Source of the DNA: an uncultured Acidobacteriia bacterium
GTDB taxonomy: Bacteria > Acidobacteriota > Terriglobia > Bryobacterales > Bryobacteraceae
Reading direction: 5' to 3'
DNA length: 35,008 nt
Assembly: GCA_903900705.1 (NCBI GenBank)
Contig: CAIUOG010000161.1
Span: 1-35,008 of the forward strand
A model generated the notes under the pieces. That model had not been told where the DNA came from, searched no databases, and saw only the letters and a list, made by a program, of their open reading frames with translations. The position numbers and the translations under genes are program-made. Positions 18,140 to 35,008 of this stretch are shown piece after piece. Within the stretch, counting starts at the first letter, position 1. The number at the start of each line of letters is the position of its first letter.

Positions 18140-18169
18140 ATGTTGGGGCATAGTCTACTCACCGCATGA
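18140..18169 (+). other. Nine-codon open frame overlapping the infC start
   Basis: An ATG at 18140 opens a nine-residue frame (MLGHSLLTA) that stops at TGA 18167-18169, sharing ATGA with the infC start codon at 18166. Such an arrangement could couple infC translation to a leader. The frame lacks a Shine-Dalgarno and may begin at, or even before, the proposed transcription start. It could be chance. Confidence 0.25.
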
Positions 18170-18777
18170 TTCCAGGCCGCAATTTCCCGCCTCGAAAGCC
18201 CAGTCGCCGAGAAAACGTCAACGAATCGATCCGTGCCAGGGAGGTACGCGCTGTATTCCCTGATGGCACCGCAGAAATCATGCCCACTTCCGCCGCCCTT
18301 CGCCGGGCTCAGGAACTGGGGCTGGATCTCGTCGTGGTGTCTCCCACCGCGGTTCCTCCTGTTGCCAAGGCAATCGACTACGGCCATTATCAGTACGAAC
18401 TGAAGAAGAAACAGCACGAAGCCAAGAAGAAGCAGCACGTGGTCCAGGTGAAGGAACTGAAGTTCCGTCCCAATACCGATGACCACGACTACGACTTCAA
18501 AAAGAACCACGCCATCCGCTTCCTCCAGGAAGGCAATCGCGTGAAGGCCGTGGTGCAGTTCCGCGGACGCGAAATCGCTCACACCGATCTCGGCCGCAAA
18601 CTCCTGCTTCGCTTCTCCGAAGATCTCACGGCCTATGGACTCTCCGATGGCCCGCCGCGCATGGAAGGCCGCAACGCCCACATCCTGCTCAGCCCGGTGA
18701 AAGCGGTCACCAAGCCAGGCGGCAAGGTCGATCACGCCGCGCCACCGGCCCAGAACCCCGGCCCCGCGGCGCACTAA
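18166..18777 (+). CDS. infC: Translation initiation factor IF-3
   Basis: This is a 203-residue protein with both IF-3 domains. The N-terminal domain (about 15-80) has RRENVNESIRAREVR, LDLVVVSPTAVPPVAKAIDY and GHYQYE. A basic linker helix follows (LKKKQHEAKKKQ, 79-90). The C-terminal domain (about 92-180) has VKELKFRPNTDDHDYDFKK, RFLQEGNRVKAVVQFRGREI and PPRMEGRNAHILLSP. The usual PPVCRIMDYG is PPVAKAIDYG here. It binds the 30S subunit and polices start-codon selection. A non-conserved tail (~20 residues, Pro/Ala-rich) extends past the family end. The start is ATG, not the rare AUU of enterobacterial infC. The usual rpmI and rplT genes do not follow; the next gene is convergent. Confidence 0.95.
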   Translation: MIPGRNFPPRKPSRRENVNESIRAREVRAVFPDGTAEIMPTSAALRRAQELGLDLVVVSPTAVPPVAKAIDYGHYQYELKKKQHEAKKKQHVVQVKELKFRPNTDDHDYDFKKNHAIRFLQEGNRVKAVVQFRGREIAHTDLGRKLLLRFSEDLTAYGLSDGPPRMEGRNAHILLSPVKAVTKPGGKVDHAAPPAQNPGPAAH

Positions 18778-23944: not shown

Positions 23945-25012
23945 CTACCGTCCCCCGGCCTCACACCCTCCGCCCCCCACCCCCCGAAACACCCGCGCAA
24001 ACCCCGCGCTGCAATGCCGCCGGTTCCCCGCATCAATCTCCATCACTTCCAGCCCCGCCGCCCGCGCCAAATCCATCCCCTCCACCGGCCCCAGAATAAA
24101 CACCCCCTTCTCCAGCGCCACCCCCACCTCCGCCGACTTCGCCATCACCGTCACCGCAATCGACGCCCGCGCCGGCCACCCCGTCCTCGGGTCAATAATG
24201 TGGTGATACCGCACGCCATCCACCACCCGGAACCGCTCGTAATCACCCGACGTCACCACCGCCGCGTCCGATACCTCCACCGCCCCCAGCAGTTCCCCAT
24301 GCGCCCCGCGCGGGTCCTGCACCCCCAGCCGCCACCTCTGCCCGTAGCGCCTGCCGGACGCCAGCACATCCCCGCCACCATCCACCAGCGAGTCCCGGAA
24401 CCCCTTCGCCGCCAGCACCGCCGCCGCGCGGTCCACCGCATAGCCCTTCGCCACGCCGCCCAGCCCGATGCTCATATTCTTCGGCAAATAAACCCGGTTC
24501 CCCTCAATCCGGATCTTCCGGTAATCAATATTCTTCCGCGCCCGCGCCACGCTCTCCGCCGCGGGCACCGCAAACGTATCGTCGAAATGCCAGATCCGCC
24601 CCATGCCGCGCCACGTCACATCGAACGTCCCCTGCGTCTTTTCGCTGTATCCAATGCTGCGCTCAATCAGCTGCCGCAATTCCGCCGGCACCTCCACCGC
24701 ATGATCTCCCGCCGCTGCGTCAACCTGCGAAATCGGCGAATCCGGCCGCCACTCGCTCATCAGCGCGTCAATCCGCACCAGTTCCTGATACGCCGCCGCC
24801 ACCGCCTTCCGCGCCTCTTCCGCCGGCCGCCCATTCTCCGGAACCTCGATATTCCACACCGTTCCCATCAGCGATCGCTGTTCCCGAAACATCCCGCTCG
24901 TTGTCGCCGGATGTAGTCTGGCGCTGCCAAGCCGCAGGCCCAGCAGTCCGCCCGCAATCGCCACCGCAAGAAGTGTGCGTCTCCACATACCCGCATACAG
25001 AGCAGGAATCAT
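23945..25012 (-). CDS. apbE: FAD:protein FMN transferase (ApbE)
   Basis: This is a 355-residue exported protein with a membrane/signal segment at ~10-30; Met9 is an alternative start. ApbE motifs: MGTVWNIEV (49-57), GIGKGYAVD-type GGVAKGYAVD (185-194), DGGGDV (211-216), TSGDYER (254-260) and HIIDPRTG (271-278). The enzyme attaches FMN from FAD to a threonine in S/T-G-A-T motifs outside the cytoplasm, using Mg2+. Its natural clients are RnfG and RnfD, encoded divergently next door with intact motifs. Oddly, the late metal-site motif usually written A-D-A-L-x-T is GVALEK at 297-302, putting Val298 where Asp is expected and Lys302 where Thr is common. This may be a divergent but active subtype or an impaired enzyme. 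Confidence 0.93.
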   Translation of the reverse strand: MIPALYAGMWRRTLLAVAIAGGLLGLRLGSARLHPATTSGMFREQRSLMGTVWNIEVPENGRPAEEARKAVAAAYQELVRIDALMSEWRPDSPISQVDAAAGDHAVEVPAELRQLIERSIGYSEKTQGTFDVTWRGMGRIWHFDDTFAVPAAESVARARKNIDYRKIRIEGNRVYLPKNMSIGLGGVAKGYAVDRAAAVLAAKGFRDSLVDGGGDVLASGRRYGQRWRLGVQDPRGAHGELLGAVEVSDAAVVTSGDYERFRVVDGVRYHHIIDPRTGWPARASIAVTVMAKSAEVGVALEKGVFILGPVEGMDLARAAGLEVMEIDAGNRRHCSAGFARVFRGVGGGGCEAGGR

Positions 25013-25066
25013 GCCAGTGGAAGCGGTTCTTCAATTGGCACGAAGATTGCCGTTGATCATCCCGAA

Positions 25067-25207
25067 ATGACTCCGCATTCCGGCTCCTGGCAGGCGATTT
25101 ACTGGAGGAACACGGCGCGCAACGCCGCTGGTTCCATCCGCCTCGGTGAAATGCCGCAGCGGCCATTCCCGCATACTGCGTTAAACCGCGCAAAGGCCCT
25201 CGCATGA
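25067..25207 (+). CDS. Possible 46-residue leader protein ahead of rnfB
   Basis: An ATG at 25067 opens a 46-codon frame (MTPHSGSWQAIYWRNTARNA and onward) whose TGA shares ATGA with the rnfB start at 25204. The product is basic, has no membrane span and resembles nothing I know. There is no Shine-Dalgarno before its ATG. The exact overlap is what coupled genes show, but it could be coincidence in the 191-base divergent spacer. rnfB has its own AAAGG at 25192-25196. Confidence 0.25.
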   Translation: MTPHSGSWQAIYWRNTARNAAGSIRLGEMPQRPFPHTALNRAKALA

Positions 25208-26121
25208 TCATGGACTTTCTGATCGCCGCCGCGCTGATGGGCGGCATGGGCGCGATTCTCGCCGTTGTTCTCGCCATTGCCGACCGCAAATTCTACGTCT
25301 GGGAAGACCCCCGCATCAATCAGGTGGAGGCTCTGCTGCCCCACGCCAACTGCGGCGCCTGTGGCTGCGCGGGCTGCCATGCGTTCGCCGAAAAAGCCGT
25401 GAATGGCGAGATTTCTCCCGGCAAGTGCACCGTCAACAGCCCGGAAGGTATCGCCGCCGTGGCCGCCCTCTTAAAGGTCGCCGCCGGCTCCGAAGAAAAG
25501 CGCGTGGCCCGCCTCGCCTGCGCCGGTGGCACGCACGTCGCCCGCCAGAAAGCGCAATACAGCGGCCTCGAATCCTGCCGCGCCGCCGCCCTCGTCAACG
25601 GTGGCGGTAAGGGCTGCAGCTGGGGTTGTCTCGGTCTTGCCGACTGCCGCCGCGCCTGTGACTTCAACGCCATTCACATGGACGCGCACGGCCTCCCCGT
25701 CGTCACCGAAAGCCGCTGCACCGCCTGTGGTGATTGCGTCGAAGCCTGTCCCAAGGGCCTCTTCTCGCTCCACGTGGTCAGCCACCGTCTCTGGGTCGCC
25801 TGCCGCAATCTCCTGCAGGGTGACGCCGCCGAAGCCGAGTGCGAAGTCGCCTGCACCGCCTGCGGCCGCTGCGCCGTGGATGCTCCCGCGGGCCTCATCA
25901 GTATCACGAACAATCTGGCGGTGGTCGACTACTCAAAGAACCGCCTCGCAACGCAGGTCCCCATCGAACGCTGCCCCACTGGCGCAATCGTGTGGATCGA
26001 TGAAAAGAAGGGCGTGGTAAAGGGCATGGAGGCGAAGCGGATTACCCGCAAATCTCCGCTCCCCGTGGCATTGGCGCTACTACCAGTTGGCGCAGCTTCA
26101 GAAATGAAAGGGTCCAGGTGA
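25204..26121 (+). CDS. rnfB: Rnf complex subunit B, multi-cluster ferredoxin-like subunit
   Basis: This is a 305-residue protein with an N-terminal membrane helix (MIMDFLIAAALMGGMGAILA). An NCGACGCAGC-type Fe-S module follows (Cys50, 53, 55/58 and Cys75 in PGKC). A first ferredoxin pair comes next (CSWGCLGLADCRRACDFNAI, then CTACGDCVEACPKG), then a second pair that is incomplete: CTACGRCAVDAPAG has Ala227 instead of the fourth Cys, and the last motif keeps only Cys257 in ERCPTGAI. RnfB is the electron entry point that takes low-potential electrons from ferredoxin. It is the first rnf gene here; AGGTG near its end doubles as the ribosome site of the oxidoreductase gene, 7 bases on. Hydrophobic ALALLPVGAA lies at the C-terminus. 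Confidence 0.95.
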   Translation: MIMDFLIAAALMGGMGAILAVVLAIADRKFYVWEDPRINQVEALLPHANCGACGCAGCHAFAEKAVNGEISPGKCTVNSPEGIAAVAALLKVAAGSEEKRVARLACAGGTHVARQKAQYSGLESCRAAALVNGGGKGCSWGCLGLADCRRACDFNAIHMDAHGLPVVTESRCTACGDCVEACPKGLFSLHVVSHRLWVACRNLLQGDAAEAECEVACTACGRCAVDAPAGLISITNNLAVVDYSKNRLATQVPIERCPTGAIVWIDEKKGVVKGMEAKRITRKSPLPVALALLPVGAASEMKGSR

Positions 26122-26128
26122 ACCGATA

Positions 26129-29100
26129 ATGGCATTCTTTTCGAGCAAGGCGGTGACCCCGCGCACGTTCTCCTATCCGGGAGTCCGCCAGGCCATGGAC
26201 GGCAATACCGCCGTCATCATGTGCGAACGCGAATCGACTGACGCGGCCGGAGCCTACCCCATCACGCCTTCCACGCAGATGGGCGAATACTGGGCCGAAG
26301 AATCGGCAAAAGGGCATATCAATATATCGGATCGCCCCCTGATCTTCATTGAACCCGAAGGAGAACATGCCGCCGCGGCCGTCACCGCCGGCCTTTCCAT
26401 GACCGGTCTGCGCGCCACCAACTTCTCCTCGGGCCAGGGCATCGCCTACATGCATGAGTCGCTCTATGCCGCCGTCGGCAAGCGCCTCACCTATGTGCTC
26501 AACATGGGTTGCCGCGCCATGACCAAGGCCACGCTCAACGTTCATGCGGGCCATGACGATTACCACTGCGTCGATGACACCGGCTTCTTCCAGGTCTTCG
26601 GCAAGAGCGCCCAGGAAGTCTGCGATCTCAACATCATTTCTCACCGCATCGCCGAGCTCGCTCTCACGCCCGGCATCTGCGCGCAGGATGGCTTCCTCAC
26701 CACCCATCTCATCGAATCGCTGCTCTTACCCGAGCGCGAACTCATCCGCCGGTATCTGGGCCGCCCGGACGATATTATCGATACTCCCACCCCCGCCCAG
26801 CGCATTCTCTTCGGCAATACGCGTCGTCGCATTCCCGAACTCTGGACCGTCGATAACCCGGTCATGATCGGCACCGTGCAGAACCAGGACGCTTACATGC
26901 AGAGCGTCGCCGCCCAGCGCCCCTTCTTCTTCGAACACCTGCCCGCCCTCACCGAACAGGCGATGGAAGAGTATTTCGAACTCACCGGCCGCCGCTACAG
27001 CCGCGTCAGCACCTATCGGATGGAAGATGCCGAGTACGTGATTCTCGGCATGGGCAGCATGCTCGTCACCGCCGAAGCCGTGGCCGATTATCTCCGCGCC
27101 ACCCGTAAAATCGCGGTCGGCGTCGTGAACCTCACCATGTTCCGCCCGTTCCCCGGCGACCTTCTCGGCGCCCTGCTCAAAGGCCGCAAAGGCGTGGCCG
27201 TGCTGGAACGCGTCGATCAGCCTCTCGCCTCCGATCTGCCTCTCATGCGCGAACTCCGCGCCTCGCTCGGCAAGTGCTCGGAAAACGGTCTCAGCGCCAG
27301 CGGCAGCCTGCCTTATCCCGACCACGCCTCTTACCGTCAGCCCGGTGATCTGCCGCCGCTCTACTCCGGTTCCTTCGGTCTCGGCAGCCGCGACCTGCAG
27401 CCCGAAGGCATCATCGGCGCAATCGAAAACATGCTGCCGGCGGGGCCGAAGAAGAAGTTCTTCTATCTCTCCATCGACTTCCTCCACGACAAGCCCTTCA
27501 CGCCCAAACAGGAACTGCATCAGATTCAGATTGCTGATTCCTATTCCGGCGTGAAAGACCTGGTCGTGCACGGCAGTGAGAATCCCAACCTGATGCCGAA
27601 AAACAGCATCACCGTCCGCATGCACTCCGTCGGCGGCTGGGGAGCAATTACCACCGGTAAGAACCTCGCGATGACCCTGTTTGACCTGCTCGGTTATCAC
27701 ATCAAGGCCAATCCCAAGTACGGCTCGGAAAAGAAGGGCCAGCCCACCACTTACTATCTCTCCGCCGCGCCCGAACCCATCCGGATGAACTGCGACTACT
27801 TCTATGTCGACGTCGTCCTCTCGCCCGACCCCAACGTCTTCCTGCACTCCAACCCGCTCGCCGGCCTCAAGCGCGGCGGCGTCTTCATTCTCCAGAGCGC
27901 GCATGAGACCACCGAAGCCGTCTGGGCGCAGATTCCCGAGAAATTCCAGCGCATTATCATCGAAAACGATATTAAGGTTTTCCATCTCGACGCCTTCCAG
28001 ATTGCCCGCGAAGAAGCCACCGACCCCGAACTCCAGTTCCGCATGCAGGGCATAGCTTTTCAGGGCGCTTTCTTCGCCGTCTCGCCCGTCATGGGCCAGG
28101 CCAGCCTCACCGAAGAAACTCTGTTTGAAGCCATCCGCTCACAGCTGCAGCACAAGTTCGGCGGCAAGGGCGCGCGTGTCGTCGAAGACAACATCCGCGT
28201 CGTCCGTCGCGGCTTCGATCAGGTTCGCGAAATCAAAGACAAGAAGATCTCGGCCATCGCCGCCGTTCTCCGCAAAGCGCCCGACCTTCCCGCCATGCTC
28301 AAAGGTCGTCCCGCCAGTGCCGACCTCACTACCGACATCCACCGCTTCTGGGAACAGACCGGCAACTTCTACATCGGCGGCAAAGGCAACGACAATCTGG
28401 CTGACCCCTTCATCGGCCTCAGCTTCATCCCCGCCGCCACCGGCGTCTTTCGCGACATGTCCGGTGTCCGCTTCGACCATCCCACGTGGCTTCCCGAAAA
28501 CTGCACCGCCTGCGGCTCCTGCTATACCATCTGCCCGGATAGCGCGATCCCCGCGCTCGTCCACCCCATCAGCGCTGTCCTCGAAACCGCGCTGAAGGCC
28601 GTGCAGGATACCGGCGTCAGCCCCAAACACCTGCCCCGCGCCATCCGCACTCTCGAACAGAAACTGCGGCCCATGCTCCAGGCCGCCGGTGAAAAAGCCA
28701 ATGTCCGCGCGCTGATGGCCGATGCCATCCACCTCACCTCGGAAAGCCTCTTCAAAACCGATGGCCCGGATCGCCTCGAACTCGACCACGAACTGGAACT
28801 CCTGCAGCAGGCCATGGGCGACTACAAGTTCTCCCTCACCCAGCCCTACTGGTCCGTCAAAGAGAAGAAGCAGAAGGGCTCCGGCGGCCTGCTCTCCATC
28901 ACCATCAATCCCTACACCTGCAAGGGCTGCATGGAGTGCGTCAAGGTCTGCAATGACGACGCGCTCCGCCCCGTCCCCCAGACGCCCGATTCGCTCGATA
29001 GTCTCCGCCGCGGCTGGAACTTCTGGCAGGCCCTGCCCACCACCTCACCCGAATACATCCGTATTGAGAATCTCGATGAACGCATCGGCGCTCTCGAAAC

Positions 29101-31081
29101 CCTCTTACTCGATAAGAAGAACTATCTCGGCATGACCGGCGGCGATGGCGCCTGCCTCGGCTGCGGCGAGAAGACCGTTGTGCACCTCTTCACCGCCACC
29201 GTGGAAGCCCTCATGCAGCCGCGCGTCGCGAAGCAGGTCGCGAAGCTTGACGACCTCATTCAGCAGCTCGACCAGCACATCCGTCTCCGCCTCGCCGGCA
29301 CCATGGACCTCAGCGACAGCCATCGCGTCGAAGAAGCCCTCGGCAAACTGCGCGATAAGGACGTCACCCTCGCCAGCTTCTCCGAAACGCTCGACGAACG
29401 CCACAGCGGCAAAACCATCGATTCCGACTGGCTCCGCTGGGCCACGCAACTGCTCGCGAAGCTGAAGCACCTGCGCTGGCAGTACACCGAAGGCGTCACC
29501 AAACGGGGCCGCGCCAGCATGGGCATCATCAACTCCACCGGCTGCACCTCCGTCTGGGCGTCCACTTATCCCTTCAACCCCTACCCATTCCCCTGGGCGA
29601 ATAACCTCTTCCAGGATTCGCCGTCCACGGCCATGGGCCTGTTTGAAGGCCACATGTCCCGCATGGCCGATGGCTTCCGCGCCATCCGCATGGCGGAAAT
29701 CGAACTGAAATCCGGCTATAACAAGCAAAAGCACGAGGAATACTTCACTTATTTCAACTGGAAACAGTTCACCGATGATGAATTCCACCTCTGCCCCCCC
29801 GTTGTCGCTATCGGCGGCGACGGAGCCATGTTCGATATCGGCTTCCAGAACCTCTCCCGCATGATGATGTCCGGCAAGCCCATCAAGGTTCTCATCCTCG
29901 ATACGCAGGTCTACTCGAACACCGGCGGCCAGGCCTGCACCTCCGGCTTCACCGGCCAGGTGTCAGACATGGCGCAGTACGGCAAAGCCGCGCAGGGCAA
30001 GGAGGAAATCCGCAAGGAAATCTCCATCATCGCCATGGCGCACCGCACCACCTACGTGATGCAGAGCAGCATCTCCAATCCCACGCATTTAATCGAAGGC
30101 TTCATCGAAGGCATCAACGCCCGCGTCCCCGCTCTCTTCACGGTCTACAGCCCCTGCATGCCGGAACACGGCATCGCCGACGATCTCGCCGAACACCAGA
30201 GCAAGCTCGCCGTCGAATCCCGAGCCTATCCGCTCATCCGCTATAACCCCGAAAAAGGCCCCCTGCCCGAGCAGTGCTTCGACCTCGAAGGCAACCCCTC
30301 GCTCGAAACCGACTGGCCTTCGTACAACCTGCAATACACCGATGAGGATGGCGCCAACAAGAGCATGGAACTGCCCATGACCTTTGCCGATTTCGCCGTC
30401 ACCGAAGGCCGCTTCCGCAAACAGTTCCGCACCGTCCCGCGCGATGCCTGGAACGACAACATGGTCCCGCTTACCGAATATCTCGATCTCTCCACCGATG
30501 ATCGCGATGGCAAATTCCCCTTCATCTGGGCCGTGAATCTGAAAAACCGCCTCATCCGCGTCATCCCCGCCGCGCCCCTCGTGCGGTCCTGCGAAGACCG
30601 CCGCAACTTCTGGCGGATGCTGAAGTCCCTCGCCGGAGTTCGCGAAGTGGTCTCCTCCGTCCCGGCCGATCAGGTCCGCGCCGAATTCGCCCAAAGCGTG
30701 GCCGCGAAGCTTCTCGAATGGGCTGGTGGCGGCGCGGTTCCCCCCGCCGCTCCGGTCGCCATTCCCGCCGCGTCCGCCCCGCTGACCGCGATCCCCGCCG
30801 CTGTACCGGCTCCTGCCGCCGGTGGCGAAGGCTACATCGCGCCCTGGATCGAATCCGCCAACTGCACCTCCTGCGACGAATGCATCGGCATTAATCGAAA
30901 AATCTTCGCTTATGACGAACACAAGCATGCTTATGTGAAAGATCCGAAGGGTGGCCCGTACAAAGACCTGGTCCGCGCGGCGGAGAAATGCACCGCGCAG
31001 ATCATCCACCCCGGCACCCCCGCGGATCCCAATGAGAAGGATGCCGACAAGCTGCTGAAGCGCGCGGCGAAGTACAACTAA
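26129..31081 (+). CDS. nifJ: Pyruvate:ferredoxin oxidoreductase, extended, with C-terminal ferredoxin domain
   Basis: This is a 1,650-residue single-chain 2-oxoacid:ferredoxin oxidoreductase; usual NifJ/PFOR chains are near 1,170-1,200. Order: alpha domain (1-~430, ESTDAAGAYPITPSTQ), gamma domain (~489-690, MHSVGGWGAITTGKNLA), then the EKR-type region. Two [4Fe-4S] motifs follow (Cys792/795/798/802 and Cys931/934/937/941, about 130 residues apart). The TPP domain has Cys1009/Cys1012, N1135-STGC, GDG at 1230-1232 and NTGGQ at 1264-1268. A Pro/Ala linker (~1536-1570) leads to an extra single-cluster ferredoxin domain (Cys1579/1582/1585, Cys1621). It oxidises pyruvate with CoA to acetyl-CoA and CO2. 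Substrate choice among 2-oxoacids is inferred. It is flanked by rnfB (7 bases) and rnfC (9 bases). Confidence 0.92.
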   Translation: MAFFSSKAVTPRTFSYPGVRQAMDGNTAVIMCERESTDAAGAYPITPSTQMGEYWAEESAKGHINISDRPLIFIEPEGEHAAAAVTAGLSMTGLRATNFSSGQGIAYMHESLYAAVGKRLTYVLNMGCRAMTKATLNVHAGHDDYHCVDDTGFFQVFGKSAQEVCDLNIISHRIAELALTPGICAQDGFLTTHLIESLLLPERELIRRYLGRPDDIIDTPTPAQRILFGNTRRRIPELWTVDNPVMIGTVQNQDAYMQSVAAQRPFFFEHLPALTEQAMEEYFELTGRRYSRVSTYRMEDAEYVILGMGSMLVTAEAVADYLRATRKIAVGVVNLTMFRPFPGDLLGALLKGRKGVAVLERVDQPLASDLPLMRELRASLGKCSENGLSASGSLPYPDHASYRQPGDLPPLYSGSFGLGSRDLQPEGIIGAIENMLPAGPKKKFFYLSIDFLHDKPFTPKQELHQIQIADSYSGVKDLVVHGSENPNLMPKNSITVRMHSVGGWGAITTGKNLAMTLFDLLGYHIKANPKYGSEKKGQPTTYYLSAAPEPIRMNCDYFYVDVVLSPDPNVFLHSNPLAGLKRGGVFILQSAHETTEAVWAQIPEKFQRIIIENDIKVFHLDAFQIAREEATDPELQFRMQGIAFQGAFFAVSPVMGQASLTEETLFEAIRSQLQHKFGGKGARVVEDNIRVVRRGFDQVREIKDKKISAIAAVLRKAPDLPAMLKGRPASADLTTDIHRFWEQTGNFYIGGKGNDNLADPFIGLSFIPAATGVFRDMSGVRFDHPTWLPENCTACGSCYTICPDSAIPALVHPISAVLETALKAVQDTGVSPKHLPRAIRTLEQKLRPMLQAAGEKANVRALMADAIHLTSESLFKTDGPDRLELDHELELLQQAMGDYKFSLTQPYWSVKEKKQKGSGGLLSITINPYTCKGCMECVKVCNDDALRPVPQTPDSLDSLRRGWNFWQALPTTSPEYIRIENLDERIGALETLLLDKKNYLGMTGGDGACLGCGEKTVVHLFTATVEALMQPRVAKQVAKLDDLIQQLDQHIRLRLAGTMDLSDSHRVEEALGKLRDKDVTLASFSETLDERHSGKTIDSDWLRWATQLLAKLKHLRWQYTEGVTKRGRASMGIINSTGCTSVWASTYPFNPYPFPWANNLFQDSPSTAMGLFEGHMSRMADGFRAIRMAEIELKSGYNKQKHEEYFTYFNWKQFTDDEFHLCPPVVAIGGDGAMFDIGFQNLSRMMMSGKPIKVLILDTQVYSNTGGQACTSGFTGQVSDMAQYGKAAQGKEEIRKEISIIAMAHRTTYVMQSSISNPTHLIEGFIEGINARVPALFTVYSPCMPEHGIADDLAEHQSKLAVESRAYPLIRYNPEKGPLPEQCFDLEGNPSLETDWPSYNLQYTDEDGANKSMELPMTFADFAVTEGRFRKQFRTVPRDAWNDNMVPLTEYLDLSTDDRDGKFPFIWAVNLKNRLIRVIPAAPLVRSCEDRRNFWRMLKSLAGVREVVSSVPADQVRAEFAQSVAAKLLEWAGGGAVPPAAPVAIPAASAPLTAIPAAVPAPAAGGEGYIAPWIESANCTSCDECIGINRKIFAYDEHKHAYVKDPKGGPYKDLVRAAEKCTAQIIHPGTPADPNEKDADKLLKRAAKYN

Positions 31082-31090
31082 GGGCCCCCG

Positions 31091-32437
31091 ATGCCGCTAC
31101 TCGAAGCCATTACCGGCAAGCGTCTCTGGCGCGGAGTCCATGTCCCGGAACACAAGGAAGACACCGAACGTCTTCCCATCCGCCGCATGCCCTTCGCGCC
31201 CCTGCTGGTGATCCCTCTTTCGCAACACAACGGCGCGCCTTCCATCCCCATCGTGCACGAAGGGCAGGAAGTCGTCCGTGGCGAGCCCATCGCGAAAGCC
31301 GCCGGGTTCATGTCGATTCCCATGCACGCGCCCGCCACAGGCCGCGTGCAGCGCATTGCGCTCGCCCCAGGCGCGCGCGGTGAACTGGGCCTCGCCATTT
31401 ATCTTGCGCCCTACCTCAGCGCCAGCCAGGAGATCCTCTACGGCGCGCCCCGTGACATCGCCGATATGACTCCGGCGGAGATCGTCCAGGCCGTGCAGGA
31501 TACCGGCGTCGTCGGCCTCGGCGGCGCTGCCTTCCCCACCCACGTCAAACTCAAAGTCCCCGAAGGCCGCACCATCGATACCGTCGTCGTCAACGGCTGC
31601 GAATGCGAGCCCTATCTCACCACAGACCATCGCATCATGCTCGAACAGTCCGCGCAGGTGCTGCACGGCACGCGCGTCGCCATGAAGGCCCTGGGCGCGC
31701 CCCGCGCCGTCATCGGAGTGGAAGATAACAAGATGGATGCCGTGGCCGCCCTCCGGCAGGCCAATGGTTCCGCTACCGACATCACTGTCGAATCCGTGCC
31801 CGCCCGCTATCCGCAGGGCGCGGAAAAAATGCTGGTGAAGGTTCTGCTCAACCGTGAGGTCCCCTCCGCCGGCCTGCCCTCCGAAGTCGGCCTCGCCGTC
31901 TTCAACGTCGCCACGCTCGCTCAGATCGGCGACCTTCTCCCACGCCGCGGCGGACTCATCGAACGTGTCATCACCATCGCCGGGCCCGGCGTGAAGAAGC
32001 CCGGAAATTTTCTCGTCGCGCTCGGCACCCCCCTTCGCTGGGCGCTCGAACAGGCCGCCTGTACAGACCGCGTCTCCTCCGTGGTCCTGGGCGGCCCCAT
32101 GATGGGCGCGGCCGTCGGCTCGCTCGACGTCCCTGTTACCAAAGGCGTCAGCGGCATCCTTGTGTTGGAGGATGACCACGGCCCCGCCCATCACAATTAC
32201 ATCCATCCCTGCATCAAATGCGCCGCCTGCGTCGACGTCTGCCCCATGCACCTCAACCCGTCCCGCCTCGGCCTCCTCGCCCGCAAAGAACGCTACGAAG
32301 AGATGGAAACGGACTTTCACCTGATGGACTGCTTTGAATGCGGCTGCTGCAGCTACGTCTGCCCCTCACAGATTCCGCTCGTGCAGTATTTCCGCATCTC
32401 GAAACAGATGAACCGCGAAAGGAAGGCCCGCGCATGA
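31091..32437 (+). CDS. rnfC: Rnf complex subunit C (NADH/FMN and Fe-S subunit)
   Basis: This is a 448-residue peripheral subunit. The N-terminal barrel/biotinyl-like part holds IPMHAPATGRVQRI (~75-90). The flavin/NADH-binding fold has GVVGLGGAAFPTHVKL and VVNGCECEPYLTTDH (~140-180), then GVEDNK and the SLBB-like region. The C-terminal ferredoxin-like domain has two full motifs: Cys374/377/380/384 and Cys414/417/420/424. RnfC passes electrons to NAD+ (or takes them in reverse). All key motifs are intact and the length is normal for the long-lived bacterial form without a long repeat tail. Its TGA overlaps the rnfD ATG (32434), so the two are translationally coupled. Confidence 0.96.
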   Translation: MPLLEAITGKRLWRGVHVPEHKEDTERLPIRRMPFAPLLVIPLSQHNGAPSIPIVHEGQEVVRGEPIAKAAGFMSIPMHAPATGRVQRIALAPGARGELGLAIYLAPYLSASQEILYGAPRDIADMTPAEIVQAVQDTGVVGLGGAAFPTHVKLKVPEGRTIDTVVVNGCECEPYLTTDHRIMLEQSAQVLHGTRVAMKALGAPRAVIGVEDNKMDAVAALRQANGSATDITVESVPARYPQGAEKMLVKVLLNREVPSAGLPSEVGLAVFNVATLAQIGDLLPRRGGLIERVITIAGPGVKKPGNFLVALGTPLRWALEQAACTDRVSSVVLGGPMMGAAVGSLDVPVTKGVSGILVLEDDHGPAHHNYIHPCIKCAACVDVCPMHLNPSRLGLLARKERYEEMETDFHLMDCFECGCCSYVCPSQIPLVQYFRISKQMNRERKARA

Positions 32438-33498
32438 GTTCCGCCAGGGTTGCCGAAAGGGTTCTGGAAGTTCGCACCTCGCCGCATGCTCACAACGCCA
32501 TGTCGGTGGAGAAGATCATGCGCAACGTGGTCTTCGCCCTGCTGCCCATCTCCGCCTACGCGGTCTGGATGTTCGGCATCAGCGCTTTCTTCCTCCTCGT
32601 CACTACTACGCTGGCCTCCCTCGCCACCGAATCCGCCGCCTGCCGCATGAGCGGCAAGCGCTCTTCCATCGGAGACTACAGCGCCGTCATCACCGGCCTT
32701 CTGCTGGGCCTCACGCTGCCCCCCGGCCTGCCTCTCTGGATGGGCGCCCTCGGCGCGTTCATCGCCGTCGGCCCCGGCAAAATGGTCTTCGGCGGCCTGG
32801 GCTTCAACGTCTTCAACCCCGCGCTCGTCGGCCGCGCTTTCCTGCAGGCCGCCTTCCCTGTCGCCATCACCGCTTACACGCCCGCCAAAGCGCTCGGGCG
32901 CTTCACGGAATTCATCCCCTCTTCCCTCGCCTGGCCCTTCATGAAGGCCGCCCCGGTCACCGAATGGATGGCCCGCGTCCGCGTCGATGGCTTCACCGGC
33001 GCAACCCCTCTCATGCTGCGGAAGTTTGACCACATCCAGACAGACCCCTGGTCCATGTTCCTCGGCGAACGCGCCGGCTCCACGGGCGAAACAGCCGCGC
33101 TGCTCATCTTCGTCTGCGGCCTCTATCTCATCATCCGGAAATTCATGGACTGGCGCGTCCCCGCCGCCATGCTCCTCAGCGCCATCGCCGTCGCCGAGGC
33201 CTTTCATCTGGCCGACGCCGCGCGCTATCCCGGCCCCCTCTTCGTGCTGCTTTCCGGTGGCCTCGTCCTCGGCGCAATGTTCATGGCGACCGACCCCGTC
33301 GGTTCCCCCGTCACCCCCCGGGGCATGTGGATCTACGGCATCCTGATGGGCGCCATGACCGTTCTCATCCGCTTCCTCGGCGGCCTCGCCGAAGGCGTCA
33401 TGTATGCCATCCTGCTGGGCAACGCCTTCTCGCCGCTGATCGATAATCTGACCCAGCCAAAAACCTACGGAGAACGCAGAAAGGCGGTGGCGAAATGA
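32434..33498 (+). CDS. rnfD: Rnf complex subunit D (integral membrane, FMN-bearing)
   Basis: This is a 354-residue membrane protein from the ATG at 32434, which overlaps the rnfC stop; an in-frame start 96 bases upstream is inside rnfC and is less likely. It has about eight to ten membrane spans and the NqrB/RnfD signature regions (SPHAHNAMSVEKIMRNVVFA and GPGKMVFGGLGFNVFNPALV). The covalent-FMN motif is intact in DGFTGATPL, with Thr191 the expected attachment site. It forms part of the ion-translocating membrane core. The stop overlaps rnfG by four bases. ApbE next to the operon is the presumed enzyme that loads the FMN. Confidence 0.95.
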   Translation: MSSARVAERVLEVRTSPHAHNAMSVEKIMRNVVFALLPISAYAVWMFGISAFFLLVTTTLASLATESAACRMSGKRSSIGDYSAVITGLLLGLTLPPGLPLWMGALGAFIAVGPGKMVFGGLGFNVFNPALVGRAFLQAAFPVAITAYTPAKALGRFTEFIPSSLAWPFMKAAPVTEWMARVRVDGFTGATPLMLRKFDHIQTDPWSMFLGERAGSTGETAALLIFVCGLYLIIRKFMDWRVPAAMLLSAIAVAEAFHLADAARYPGPLFVLLSGGLVLGAMFMATDPVGSPVTPRGMWIYGILMGAMTVLIRFLGGLAEGVMYAILLGNAFSPLIDNLTQPKTYGERRKAVAK

Positions 33499-34181
33499 GT
33501 CAGCTGATTCCTCCGCCGGAAAGCGCTCCTTCGCGCGAAAACAGCATCCGCATGGTGCGCCTGCTCGGCACGGTCTCGCTCATGTGCGGCGTGCTCATCG
33601 TCGGCACCAACCTCGCCACGCGCGACCGCATCCGGCAGAACCAGGAAACCATCATGCGGGATTCGGTTGCCGAACTCCTGCCCGGCGTAAAGAAGCAGGT
33701 CGTCTACTCCATCGCCGCCAAAGGCGAACTCAAAGTGATGAACGGCATCGAGGGCGAAGGCCAGCGCTTCTTCGCCGGCTATGATGCCCAGGGCAAACTC
33801 GCGGGCGTCGTGATTGAAGCCGGGGAGCGCGGCTATGCCGACGTCATTTCCGCCCTCTACTCCTACTCGCCCGCCACGCAGACCATCATCGGCTTCAAGG
33901 TGGTGGACATGCGCGAAACACCCGGTCTTGGCGACCGCGTACGCAGCGATGAGGGCTTCCTCGCCAACTTCAAACAGCTCGACGCCCGCGTGGAGAACGG
34001 GAAGGAAGTCCATCCCATCGTCACCGTCAAACACGGCGCCAAAAAGAACCCCTGGGAGATCGATGCCATCTCCGGCGCAACCATCTCCTCCCGTGCCGTC
34101 GGGCGCATGCTGCAGAAAAGCGTGGAGAACGTCACTCCGGTGATTCAGAAAAATCTCGACCGCATTGAGCGAGGACAGTAA
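33495..34181 (+). CDS. rnfG: Rnf complex subunit G (periplasmic FMN subunit)
   Basis: This is a 228-residue protein with an N-terminal membrane anchor (MVRLLGTVSLMCGVLIVGTN, about 16-35) and a periplasmic FMN-binding domain. Landmarks are GYDAQGKLAGVVIEAGERGY, KVVDMRETPGLGDRV and the flavinylation motif DAISGATISS, where Thr196 should carry FMN through a phosphoester link. The start overlaps the rnfD stop (ATGA at 33495). The next gene begins 3 bases after its stop. Nothing is missing; the length is typical of the family. Confidence 0.95.
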   Translation: MSQLIPPPESAPSRENSIRMVRLLGTVSLMCGVLIVGTNLATRDRIRQNQETIMRDSVAELLPGVKKQVVYSIAAKGELKVMNGIEGEGQRFFAGYDAQGKLAGVVIEAGERGYADVISALYSYSPATQTIIGFKVVDMRETPGLGDRVRSDEGFLANFKQLDARVENGKEVHPIVTVKHGAKKNPWEIDAISGATISSRAVGRMLQKSVENVTPVIQKNLDRIERGQ

Positions 34182-34184
34182 GCC

Positions 34185-34826
34185 ATGACCGAAACCAAAC
34201 CTTCCGTCATCAACGCCGAAAATACGCCCTTCATCAACGGGCTCTGGCGTCAGAATCCCGTCTTCGTCATGGTGCTGGGCATGTGCCCCACTCTCGCGAT
34301 TACCAACAGCGTTCGCAACGCCGTCTCCATGGGCCTCGCCACCACTTTCGTGATGGCCGTCTCTTATGGCATGATCTCCGCCATTCGCAACCTTATCCCG
34401 AAACAGGTTCGCATCGCGACCTTCATCGCCATCATCGCCTGCGCCGTCACCGTGGTGGACTTCCTCGTCAAAGCCATCAGCATCCCCATCTACCTCGCCC
34501 TGGGCGCTTATATCCCGCTCATCGTTTCCAACTGCCTCACACTTGAACGCGCCGAAGCCTATGCCTGTAAGCAGCCCGTCGTGAAAAGCATGCTCGATGG
34601 TCTCGGCATGGGTCTCGGTTTCGCCTTCGCGCTCACCTGCCTCGGCATCGTGCGCGAAGTTCTGGGCGCCGGCACCTTCCTCGGCTTCCATTTATTTGGC
34701 CCGCATTTTGAACCCCTCGTGCTCTTTCTGCTGCCTCCTGGCGGCTTTATCGCGCTGGCAATCTTACTGCTCGCATTTGCTTATCGAAAGGAACGCCAGC
34801 TTAAAAAGGCGGAGGCGCAATCATGA
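34185..34826 (+). CDS. rnfE: Rnf complex subunit E (integral membrane)
   Basis: This is a 213-residue protein with six hydrophobic spans and RnfE/NqrD marks: NPVFVMVLGMCPTLAITNS at the N-terminus, RIATFIAIIACAVTVVDFLV, GAYIPLIVSNCLTLERAEA with its conserved Cys, and a C-terminal span (FIALAILLLAFAYRKERQ). RnfE and RnfA form an inverted-topology pair around an intramembrane [2Fe-2S] cluster in Rnf/NQR enzymes; the Cys in GMCPTLA and in SNCLTLE are the expected ligands. It overlaps rnfA by four bases (ATGA at 34823). Confidence 0.95.
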   Translation: MTETKPSVINAENTPFINGLWRQNPVFVMVLGMCPTLAITNSVRNAVSMGLATTFVMAVSYGMISAIRNLIPKQVRIATFIAIIACAVTVVDFLVKAISIPIYLALGAYIPLIVSNCLTLERAEAYACKQPVVKSMLDGLGMGLGFAFALTCLGIVREVLGAGTFLGFHLFGPHFEPLVLFLLPPGGFIALAILLLAFAYRKERQLKKAEAQS

Positions 34827-35008
34827 ACGAATCTCTTACTCACATATTTCTGGACTCCTTCCTGATTAACAATTTCGTCTTATGCACGTTCTTGGGCATG
34901 TGCTCCTTCCTGGGCCTTTCCGGTAAGTTCGCCACCGCCTGGCGCATGGGCGTTTCCGTCATGTTCGTCATTACCGTCAGCAGCATTCTGTCCTGGTTTA
35001 CCAATCTG
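34823..35008 (+). CDS. rnfA: Rnf complex subunit A (integral membrane), truncated by window end
   Basis: Only the first 62 codons are present, reading to the last base of the window; the family usually has about 190-200 residues. The visible part has the RnfA/NqrE pattern: FLINNFVLCTFLGMCSFLGL with the cluster-ligand Cys in the FLGMCSFLG motif, followed by GMGVSVMFV-type second span (WRMGVSVMFVITVSS). The start overlaps the rnfE stop by four bases. This gene completes the set A, B, C, D, E and G. Confidence 0.93.
   Translation, partial: MNESLTHIFLDSFLINNFVLCTFLGMCSFLGLSGKFATAWRMGVSVMFVITVSSILSWFTNL

Follow-up and report, generated by a model that had tools for sequence, protein, structure and literature searches.

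The Rnf complex is usually viewed as an ion pump fed by soluble ferredoxin and is best known in anaerobes. In Euglena and apicomplexa, pyruvate:NADP+ oxidoreductase (PNO) joins a pyruvate:ferredoxin oxidoreductase (PFOR) and a flavin NADP reductase domain in one chain. Here we analyse a 35,008-nucleotide stretch of DNA from an uncultured Acidobacteriia bacterium of the family Bryobacteraceae (GenBank assembly GCA_903900705.1, contig CAIUOG010000161.1; hereafter the window), in which a giant PFOR carrying its own ferredoxin is encoded inside an rnf operon. It resembles PNO in that a PFOR is fused to an electron acceptor module, but PNO does not belong to an ion pump. The Rnf complexes of known structure, 9eri (Na+-translocating ferredoxin:NAD+ oxidoreductase) and 7zc6, have the same subunits as those encoded here (RnfA as a fragment), with a long multi-cluster RnfB; the window differs from them in its gene order B-(PFOR)-C-D-G-E-A, in an RnfC that falls in a group of its own and in the presence of PFOR within the operon. 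The single-chain PFORs of known structure, from Moorella thermoacetica (6cin) and Desulfovibrio africanus (1b0p), share with the window enzyme the domain order and the residues for thiamine pyrophosphate (TPP), substrate and clusters, but they are 1171–1232 residues long, whereas the window enzyme has 1650 residues, helical inserts, and a linker followed by a ferredoxin. The latter domain resembles D. africanus ferredoxin I (1fxr/1dax), which is soluble rather than fused to PFOR.

In the accessible text of the open-licence literature we found no description of a PFOR in an rnf operon, of an Rnf-tied PFOR with a tethered ferredoxin, or of the KOR type of operon described below. The available parts of a 2025 review of Rnf and Nqr (PMC12174285) do not mention PFOR, those of a survey of flavinylation (PMC8238504) do not mention pyruvate, and those of PMC10439189 and PMC6243061 held nothing relevant. 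Rnf itself is reported, in the portions available, as rnfBCDGEA in Caldithrix, with no mention there of PFOR (PMC5317091), and as rnfCDGEAB in Melioribacter (PMC3534657); it is also discussed in sulfur oxidisers (PMC11636981, PMC4914600) and mentioned along with hydrogenases in Hydrogenedentota (PMC11406978).

A giant PFOR inside an rnf operon

Window genes were assigned from open reading frames and scans with Pfam and NCBIfam. An earlier note on this DNA had described rnfB, PFOR and rnfC-D-G-E-A as lying head to tail, and we found exactly this layout: neighbouring genes are separated by 3–9 bases (rnfB–PFOR 7, PFOR–rnfC 9, rnfG/rnfE 3) or overlap by 4 bases (rnfC/rnfD, rnfD/rnfG and rnfE/rnfA). 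The description of the second gene as a full PFOR gene stands for its domains (POR_N, PFOR_II, POR (gamma) and a TPP domain with GDG and NTGGQ) and for its active-site and cluster residues, which are kept, but it had overlooked the fused ferredoxin, the unusual length and the divergence of the protein. The enzyme scores 410 bits with TIGR02176, below the curated cut-off of 911, and is therefore a divergent relative and not an equivalog by NCBI's model.

In an alignment to solved PFORs, Thr46, Glu79 and Arg129 fall on the active-site Thr, Glu and Arg (Thr31, Glu64 and Arg114 in the D. africanus enzyme). Two ferredoxin-type clusters are marked by cysteines at 792–802 and 931–941, and the proximal cluster by Cys 1009, 1012, 1139 and 1343. 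Every one of the 82 distinct sequences of the clade to which the enzyme belongs (clade I) retains all three active-site residues and the 12 core cysteines of the three [4Fe-4S] clusters, and the TPP motif GDG...NTGGQ is invariant across 54 aligned sequences. These conserved residues suggest pyruvate as the substrate.

A second set of giant PFORs, clade II (L131–L142 and L013–L019; L and G numbers denote loci and genomes), is mostly 1568–1666 residues long, shows about 38% identity and has the same helical inserts as the window enzyme. Clade II proteins have no tethered ferredoxin, and no rnfC accompanies them in the sampled Acidobacteriota genomes.

A ferredoxin tethered to the PFOR

We modelled PFOR residues 775–1650 with AlphaFold2 from a 54-sequence alignment. 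The mean predicted local distance difference test score (pLDDT) is 82; the ferredoxin lies mostly at 84–91, and the Ala/Pro-rich linker, which scores below 50, is apparently disordered in the model. The stretch from the core to the first ferredoxin cysteine measures 69–122 residues over 95 rows, among them repeat entries for one genome. Foldseek places the PFOR model best on the Moorella PFOR (E 5e-17, template-modelling score 0.39 by query) and the ferredoxin domain on 1fxr_A, with a root-mean-square deviation of 0.8 Å over 58 columns and a template-modelling score of 0.85 by target, at an E of only 0.015; phmmer matches the domain to ferredoxin I (1dax) at 9e-6. The tethered domain is thus predicted to have a ferredoxin fold.

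The tether is confined to one part of the family. Its four ferredoxin cysteines are present in 84 of 85 sequences of clades I (81/82) and Ib (3/3), the sole clade I exception (L051) being a sequence that ends at a contig end, and the domain is found in none of 23 distant PFORs (0/19 clade II, 0/4 class III). These counts are of distinct sequences, with repeat fetches merged; class III row L020 is a truncated clade II member, and the distant PFORs of the Acidobacteriota genomes G070, G137, G191 and G236 lie outside the ferredoxin alignment. In a PFOR tree calculated without the linker and ferredoxin columns (68 chosen rows, quick method), clades I and Ib form one group with a support of 100, and clade II, class III and the canonical PFORs fall outside it.

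Conserved gene order and co-occurrence with Rnf

The earlier note proposed mapping the rnfB–PFOR–rnfC order, and among the best 80 of 558 loci of relatives the order proved to be widespread. rnfC lies behind PFOR in 72 of the 80, at a median gap of 13 bases (maximum 1356; within 100 bases in 57), and seven of the remaining eight loci end 0–259 bases past PFOR, the eighth being L063. We considered whether an ordinary PFOR had been placed here by chance, and rejected this on those counts. rnfB precedes PFOR in 52 loci by a script that missed overlapping frames (L072, L092), and Bacteroidota loci mostly read PFOR-rnfC-D-G-E-A-FNR-rnfB, where FNR stands for a gene resembling ferredoxin-NADP reductase. 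By record title the carriers belong to more than ten phyla and include Acidobacteriota, Hydrogenedentota, Verrucomicrobia, Calditrichota, KSB1, Bacteroidota, Gammaproteobacteria, Myxococcota, Planctomycetota, Spirochaetaceae, Kiritimatiellae, Gemmatimonadota, Binatia and SAR324. One Calditrichales contig (L049:403-19361) holds two tandem rnf sets, the second with PFOR.

The note's reading would be in difficulty if the same PFOR were common in genomes that lack rnf. We found that PFORs of the clade are accompanied by rnfC in 9/9, 6/6, 12/12, 20/20 and 10/10 genomes of five sets, which overlap. The proposed PFOR–Rnf module is marked by a C-terminal tethered ferredoxin on PFOR and by rnfC in the same genome, and the window's genome has both. 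Among 61 genomes (the window's own and its nearest), clade I PFOR is present in 9, rnfC in the same 9, and neither in the other 52. The pair is patchy but joint, as 7 of 19 genomes of the window's genus have both genes and 12 have neither. In a sample of 297 Acidobacteriota genomes, a PFOR-like match at E 1e-100 occurs in 24 and rnfC above the cut-off in 32; the match reaches at least 54% identity in 6 of the 24, all with rnfC (adjacent in 3), and the other 18, at no more than 44% identity, are without rnfC at E 1e-60. Of 148 Cytophagales genomes, 12 have the PFOR, each with rnfC directly downstream on the contig, and 4 more have rnfC without PFOR (4/136). Fisher tests, which ignore relatedness, give 6e-11 for 9/9 versus 0/52, 7e-6 for 6/6 versus 0/18 and 1e-14 for 12/12 versus 4/136.

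Among 350 Gammaproteobacteria, clade I PFOR (at least 57%) is found in 20 genomes, all 20 with rnfC. The match reaches the ferredoxin in 18 of them; that of G1114 is visible in L199 and that of G1139 is cut. rnfC adjoins PFOR in 16 by coordinates and in G1082 by reading of L192, and the contig ends after PFOR in G1036 and G1139. The fifth set consists of 10 genomes picked from the fetched loci, including that of L063, whose PFOR is unlinked. A sample of 296 Bacteroidota genomes yielded clade I PFOR in 2, both already among the loci, and a 43–45% match in 3.

The clade Ib genome G216 has apbE beside its unlinked PFOR, on the opposite strand (L130:6729-12842), possibly the trace of a former operon. 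Elsewhere in this genome a 462-residue fragment related to the PFOR beta part stands directly before rnfC (L162:9307-10695); the 19-kb stretch of L162 contains no convincing rnfB, the sole match, at 28 bits, being to a different 4Fe-4S protein.

A distinct Rnf subfamily

In a tree of RnfC (77 chosen rows, quick method), a branch with SH-aLRT 99 splits 57 rows from 20 classical RnfC rows. The 57 comprise 49 from PFOR loci, 4 KOR-linked, 2 from clade Ib genomes and 2 from a Halobeggiatoa genome. PFOR and RnfC distances correlate over 47 loci (r 0.87; 0/2000 permutations). Both trees group, for example, the Opitutales, Kiritimatiellae and Spirochaetaceae rows, and both place the acidobacterial L087 with Myxococcota and Planctomycetota; these shared groupings suggest that PFOR and Rnf transfer as a unit.

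The 26 Acidobacteriota genomes with rnfC over the cut-off and without a clade I or Ib PFOR offered a comparison, and we read 20 of their rnf loci. Seventeen of these stretches hold no PFOR-like gene, in keeping with the earlier statement that canonical rnf operons carry no PFOR; inside its own Rnf subfamily the arrangement is widespread, and there the statement does not apply.

A parallel operon with KOR

The other three loci (L180, L184, L187) read korB-korT-rnfB-X-rnfC onward, with korA partial or lost at the end of the stretch; KorT and X, like tethered ferredoxin, are names coined in this analysis. A fourth acidobacterial case is L169, the second rnf locus of G258. In Gammaproteobacteria, L194, L195 and L196 read korA-korB-korT-rnfB-X-rnfC-D-G-E-A (with 2 kb between X and rnfC in L196), and L198 reads korT-rnfB-X up to the contig end. 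The first two subunits resemble the known 2-oxoacid:ferredoxin oxidoreductase KorAB: KorA of L149 exceeds the cut-off of the alpha model TIGR03710, and KorB comes near that of TIGR02177 (239 versus 262 bits). Unlike known KorAB, these systems have KorT as a third subunit, and in the KOR–Rnf operons their genes stand beside rnfB and the gene for a PFOR relative devoid of catalytic motifs. As for the KOR substrate, 2-oxoglutarate is our guess.

KorT is homologous to the last third of PFOR and consists of a beta-like domain, usually with linker and ferredoxin (KorT of L149, best domain E 4e-55 in a seven-sequence search). The PFOR motif TGGQ of the TPP site is missing in 20 of 20 rows, and the letters GDG occur in 3. 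A hidden Markov model (HMM) detects the tethered ferredoxin in 15 of 20 rows (14/19 without the repeat L034/L149), three of which a cruder ferredoxin pattern overlooked. Several genomes also have korA-korB-korT close to the PFOR-type operon. In Algoriphagus (L203) and Marivirga (L202) the three genes come after rnfB, and KorT shows the ferredoxin in the former but not in the latter. The window's genome has them on another contig, C66 (L147:7938-12401), with a KorT of 519 residues.

X, whose gene lies between rnfB and rnfC, is related to PFOR, with 710–805 bits in Gammaproteobacteria, 360–503 bits in L180, L184 and L187, and only 46 bits in L169. In 7 of 7 sequences both ferredoxin-type clusters keep their cysteines, eight in all, and NTGGQ and the four proximal-cluster cysteines are gone; of the active-site residues, Thr remains in 1/7, Glu in 0/7 and Arg in 3/7. 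These pseudo-PFORs form long branches in the tree, and their placement is unsure (support 90). That an X without catalytic motifs keeps the slot and the two ferredoxin-type clusters is what one would predict if the body of PFOR also serves for docking and wiring.

Layout of the window

By their sequences, the window genes appear to supply every subunit of an Rnf complex (A, B, C, D, G and E; Table 1). RnfB, C, D and E exceed the NCBIfam subfamily cut-offs, the best match of RnfG reaches 84 bits, under its cut-off of 102, and RnfA was assessed as a 62-residue fragment, the gene being incomplete because the assembly contig stops at 35008. A scan for promoter and terminator signals was at chance level (promoter sites, 1 found versus 1.8 expected). 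The closest named relatives of the sequences are Bryobacterales/Bryobacteraceae and other Acidobacteriota.

Table 1. Features of the rnf–PFOR locus, in positions of the window
Feature	Position	Strand	Basis or remark
apbE, FAD:protein FMN transferase	23945..25012	-	Pfam ApbE 3e-75; divergent from rnfB
Divergent intergenic region, 191 bases, presumed rnf operon promoter	25013..25203		Sequence
rnfB, 305 aa, long, multi-cluster	25204..26121	+	Pfam/NCBIfam; 9eri_B E 1.2e-54
Giant PFOR, 1650 aa	26129..31081	+	POR_N, PFOR_II, POR (gamma), clusters, TPP domain
Ala/Pro-rich linker, PFOR residues 1533-1566	30725..30826	+	pLDDT under 50; presumed disordered
Fused C-terminal ferredoxin, one [4Fe-4S]	30827..31078	+	Pfam Fer4_13; Cys 1579/1582/1585/1621
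rnfC, 448 aa	31091..32437	+	TIGR01945 475 bits (cut-off 246); 7zc6_C E 9e-102
rnfD, likely start 32434	32434..33498	+	TIGR01946 298 bits (cut-off 207); motif TGAT
rnfG	33495..34181	+	Covalent-FMN motif SGAT
rnfE	34185..34826	+	Pfam/NCBIfam
rnfA, first 62 codons only	34823..35008	+	Pfam/NCBIfam; incomplete at contig end

The motifs for ApbE-type flavinylation stand at position 193 in RnfG and at 220 of the listed RnfD frame. The divergent apbE probably belongs with the operon, and its product would likely attach the covalent FMN of RnfG and RnfD; an ApbE match is present in 13 of the 80 relatives' loci. An FNR-like gene lies within 3 kb past rnfA in 44 of 54 relatives' loci with enough sequence (L087, scored without one, has it in a longer frame), and in the window any such gene would fall beyond the contig end. 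The flavoprotein is PetH/BoxA-like, below the cut-offs of those models, and could be a second outlet for the tethered ferredoxin. Further upstream, positions 18166-18777 resemble infC (translation initiation factor IF-3), judged by eye from the translation.

Proposed mechanism and alternative explanations

The earlier note read the operon as a pyruvate-to-ion-gradient module. The co-occurrence data bear out a dedicated PFOR–Rnf module, and the claim as a whole is partly supported. We think it probable that the operon specifies a dedicated, ion-pumping pyruvate:NAD+ oxidoreductase, with PFOR docked on Rnf and its tethered ferredoxin feeding RnfB; what we infer is the docking, the RnfB route, the pumped ion and, for this organism, operation in the oxidative direction. 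The giant PFOR would decarboxylate pyruvate with CoA on TPP, and electrons would pass from the proximal cluster through the two ferredoxin-type clusters to the tethered ferredoxin, which would swing on its flexible linker and reach RnfB, taking the part of a soluble ferredoxin. Within Rnf they would travel by way of the membrane subunits and those with covalent flavin, reaching NAD+ at RnfC. Potentials of about -500 mV and -320 mV correspond to about 35 kJ/mol per pyruvate between pyruvate and NADH, part of which would be stored as a Na+ or H+ gradient, so that the net result would be the pyruvate dehydrogenase reaction plus an ion gradient. The two strongest arguments for direct hand-over are the fused ferredoxin tied to Rnf and the pseudo-PFOR between rnfB and rnfC. 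The physical channelling that the note had raised gains an argument as well, because the carrier is fused to the enzyme and a PFOR relative lacking catalytic motifs holds the same slot in the KOR version.

We further suggest, more tentatively and at somewhat less than even chances, that a 2-oxoacid oxidoreductase forms a structural component of this Rnf subfamily within a membrane supercomplex, which would amount to an "ion-pumping pyruvate dehydrogenase" in the PFOR type and, in the KOR type, to an "ion-pumping 2-oxoglutarate dehydrogenase". The product of the gene between rnfB and rnfC would then be a PFOR body docking on Rnf; in KOR-type operons this body would have lost its chemistry and serve as an electron wire, and the swinging ferredoxin would sit on KorT.

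Several observations weigh against a docked, Rnf-dedicated PFOR. The clade Ib PFORs lie apart from rnfC, on another contig (G164, G224) or 1.4 Mb away (G216); 8.3 kb downstream of PFOR in L063 and 7 kb past it in G832 hold no rnf. Given these unlinked cases, adjacency is not essential. Of the four Gammaproteobacteria with only a 39–45% PFOR-like match, three have rnfC on another contig and one has none; since distant PFORs and classical Rnf share gammaproteobacterial genomes, the clean 0/18 is limited to Acidobacteriota. A ferredoxin on KorT is not shown in 5 of 20 rows (L030, L036, L147, L196, L202), among them the KorT of the window's own genome. The large helical inserts, a candidate docking device for Rnf, had to be rejected as such: they are common to clade II, whose sampled genomes are without rnfC, and thus are not specific to Rnf. 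The tethered ferredoxin might, moreover, serve the FNR-like protein of the relatives, instead of RnfB or in addition to it.

Unlinked PFORs such as those of clade Ib, L063 and G832 would fit co-regulation only, in which PFOR and Rnf share an operon because of their common use at low oxygen, soluble ferredoxin is the carrier and the fused domain merely aids PFOR turnover or stability; in D. africanus PFOR a C-terminal extension is tied to oxygen stability. We consider this unlikely, because the extension here is a complete ferredoxin that tracks Rnf and not PFOR in general, as its absence from the distant PFORs attests, and because the motif-less PFOR relative retained between rnfB and rnfC is hard to account for in this way. 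The direction of flow could also be the reverse: Rnf and PFOR are both reversible, and NADH and the ion gradient might drive Rnf backwards onto the tethered ferredoxin, so that PFOR and KOR would act as synthases, of pyruvate and of 2-oxoglutarate respectively, in CO2 fixation or acetate assimilation. L053, L063 and L067 belong, by their names, to sulfur-oxidising groups, but the carriers Marivirga, Algoriphagus, Cecembia and Flammeovirga are aerobic heterotrophs, and we regard a reductive role as improbable. On its side, genes of the reductive tricarboxylic acid cycle are reported to be clustered with Rnf in Endoriftia, and the same paper describes PFOR isoforms and Rnf without assigning them a direction (PMC11636981).

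Rnf running in reverse could, finally, let the module feed nitrogenase or another low-potential reductase; according to the parts available, it supplies nitrogenase in Azotobacter (PMC12174285) and Rhodobacter (PMC3534657). Of 53 carrier genomes, 7 have nifH, every one of these a member of the Gammaproteobacteria, and we found none at E 1e-60 in the other 46, including 14/14 Acidobacteriota and 12/12 Cytophagales. A tethered ferredoxin would also be poor as a general carrier. The window genome is without nifH at E 1e-60, as are the 13 other Acidobacteriota carriers, so we reject nitrogenase supply for this genome and hold the wider idea to be very improbable.

Implications

Our analysis describes a separate Rnf subfamily, spread by record title over more than ten phyla, that brings its own tethered low-potential electron source. 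The motif-less PFOR relative of the KOR-type operon offers a structural test for the supercomplex, and named isolates that carry the module (Marivirga, Algoriphagus and Flammeovirga) make testing feasible. Some carrier genera are known as aerobes. If the proposed mechanism is true, ion pumping would be directly coupled to two central steps of carbon oxidation, and aerobic or facultative bacteria of many phyla would save energy that the ordinary dehydrogenase complexes lose at both steps.

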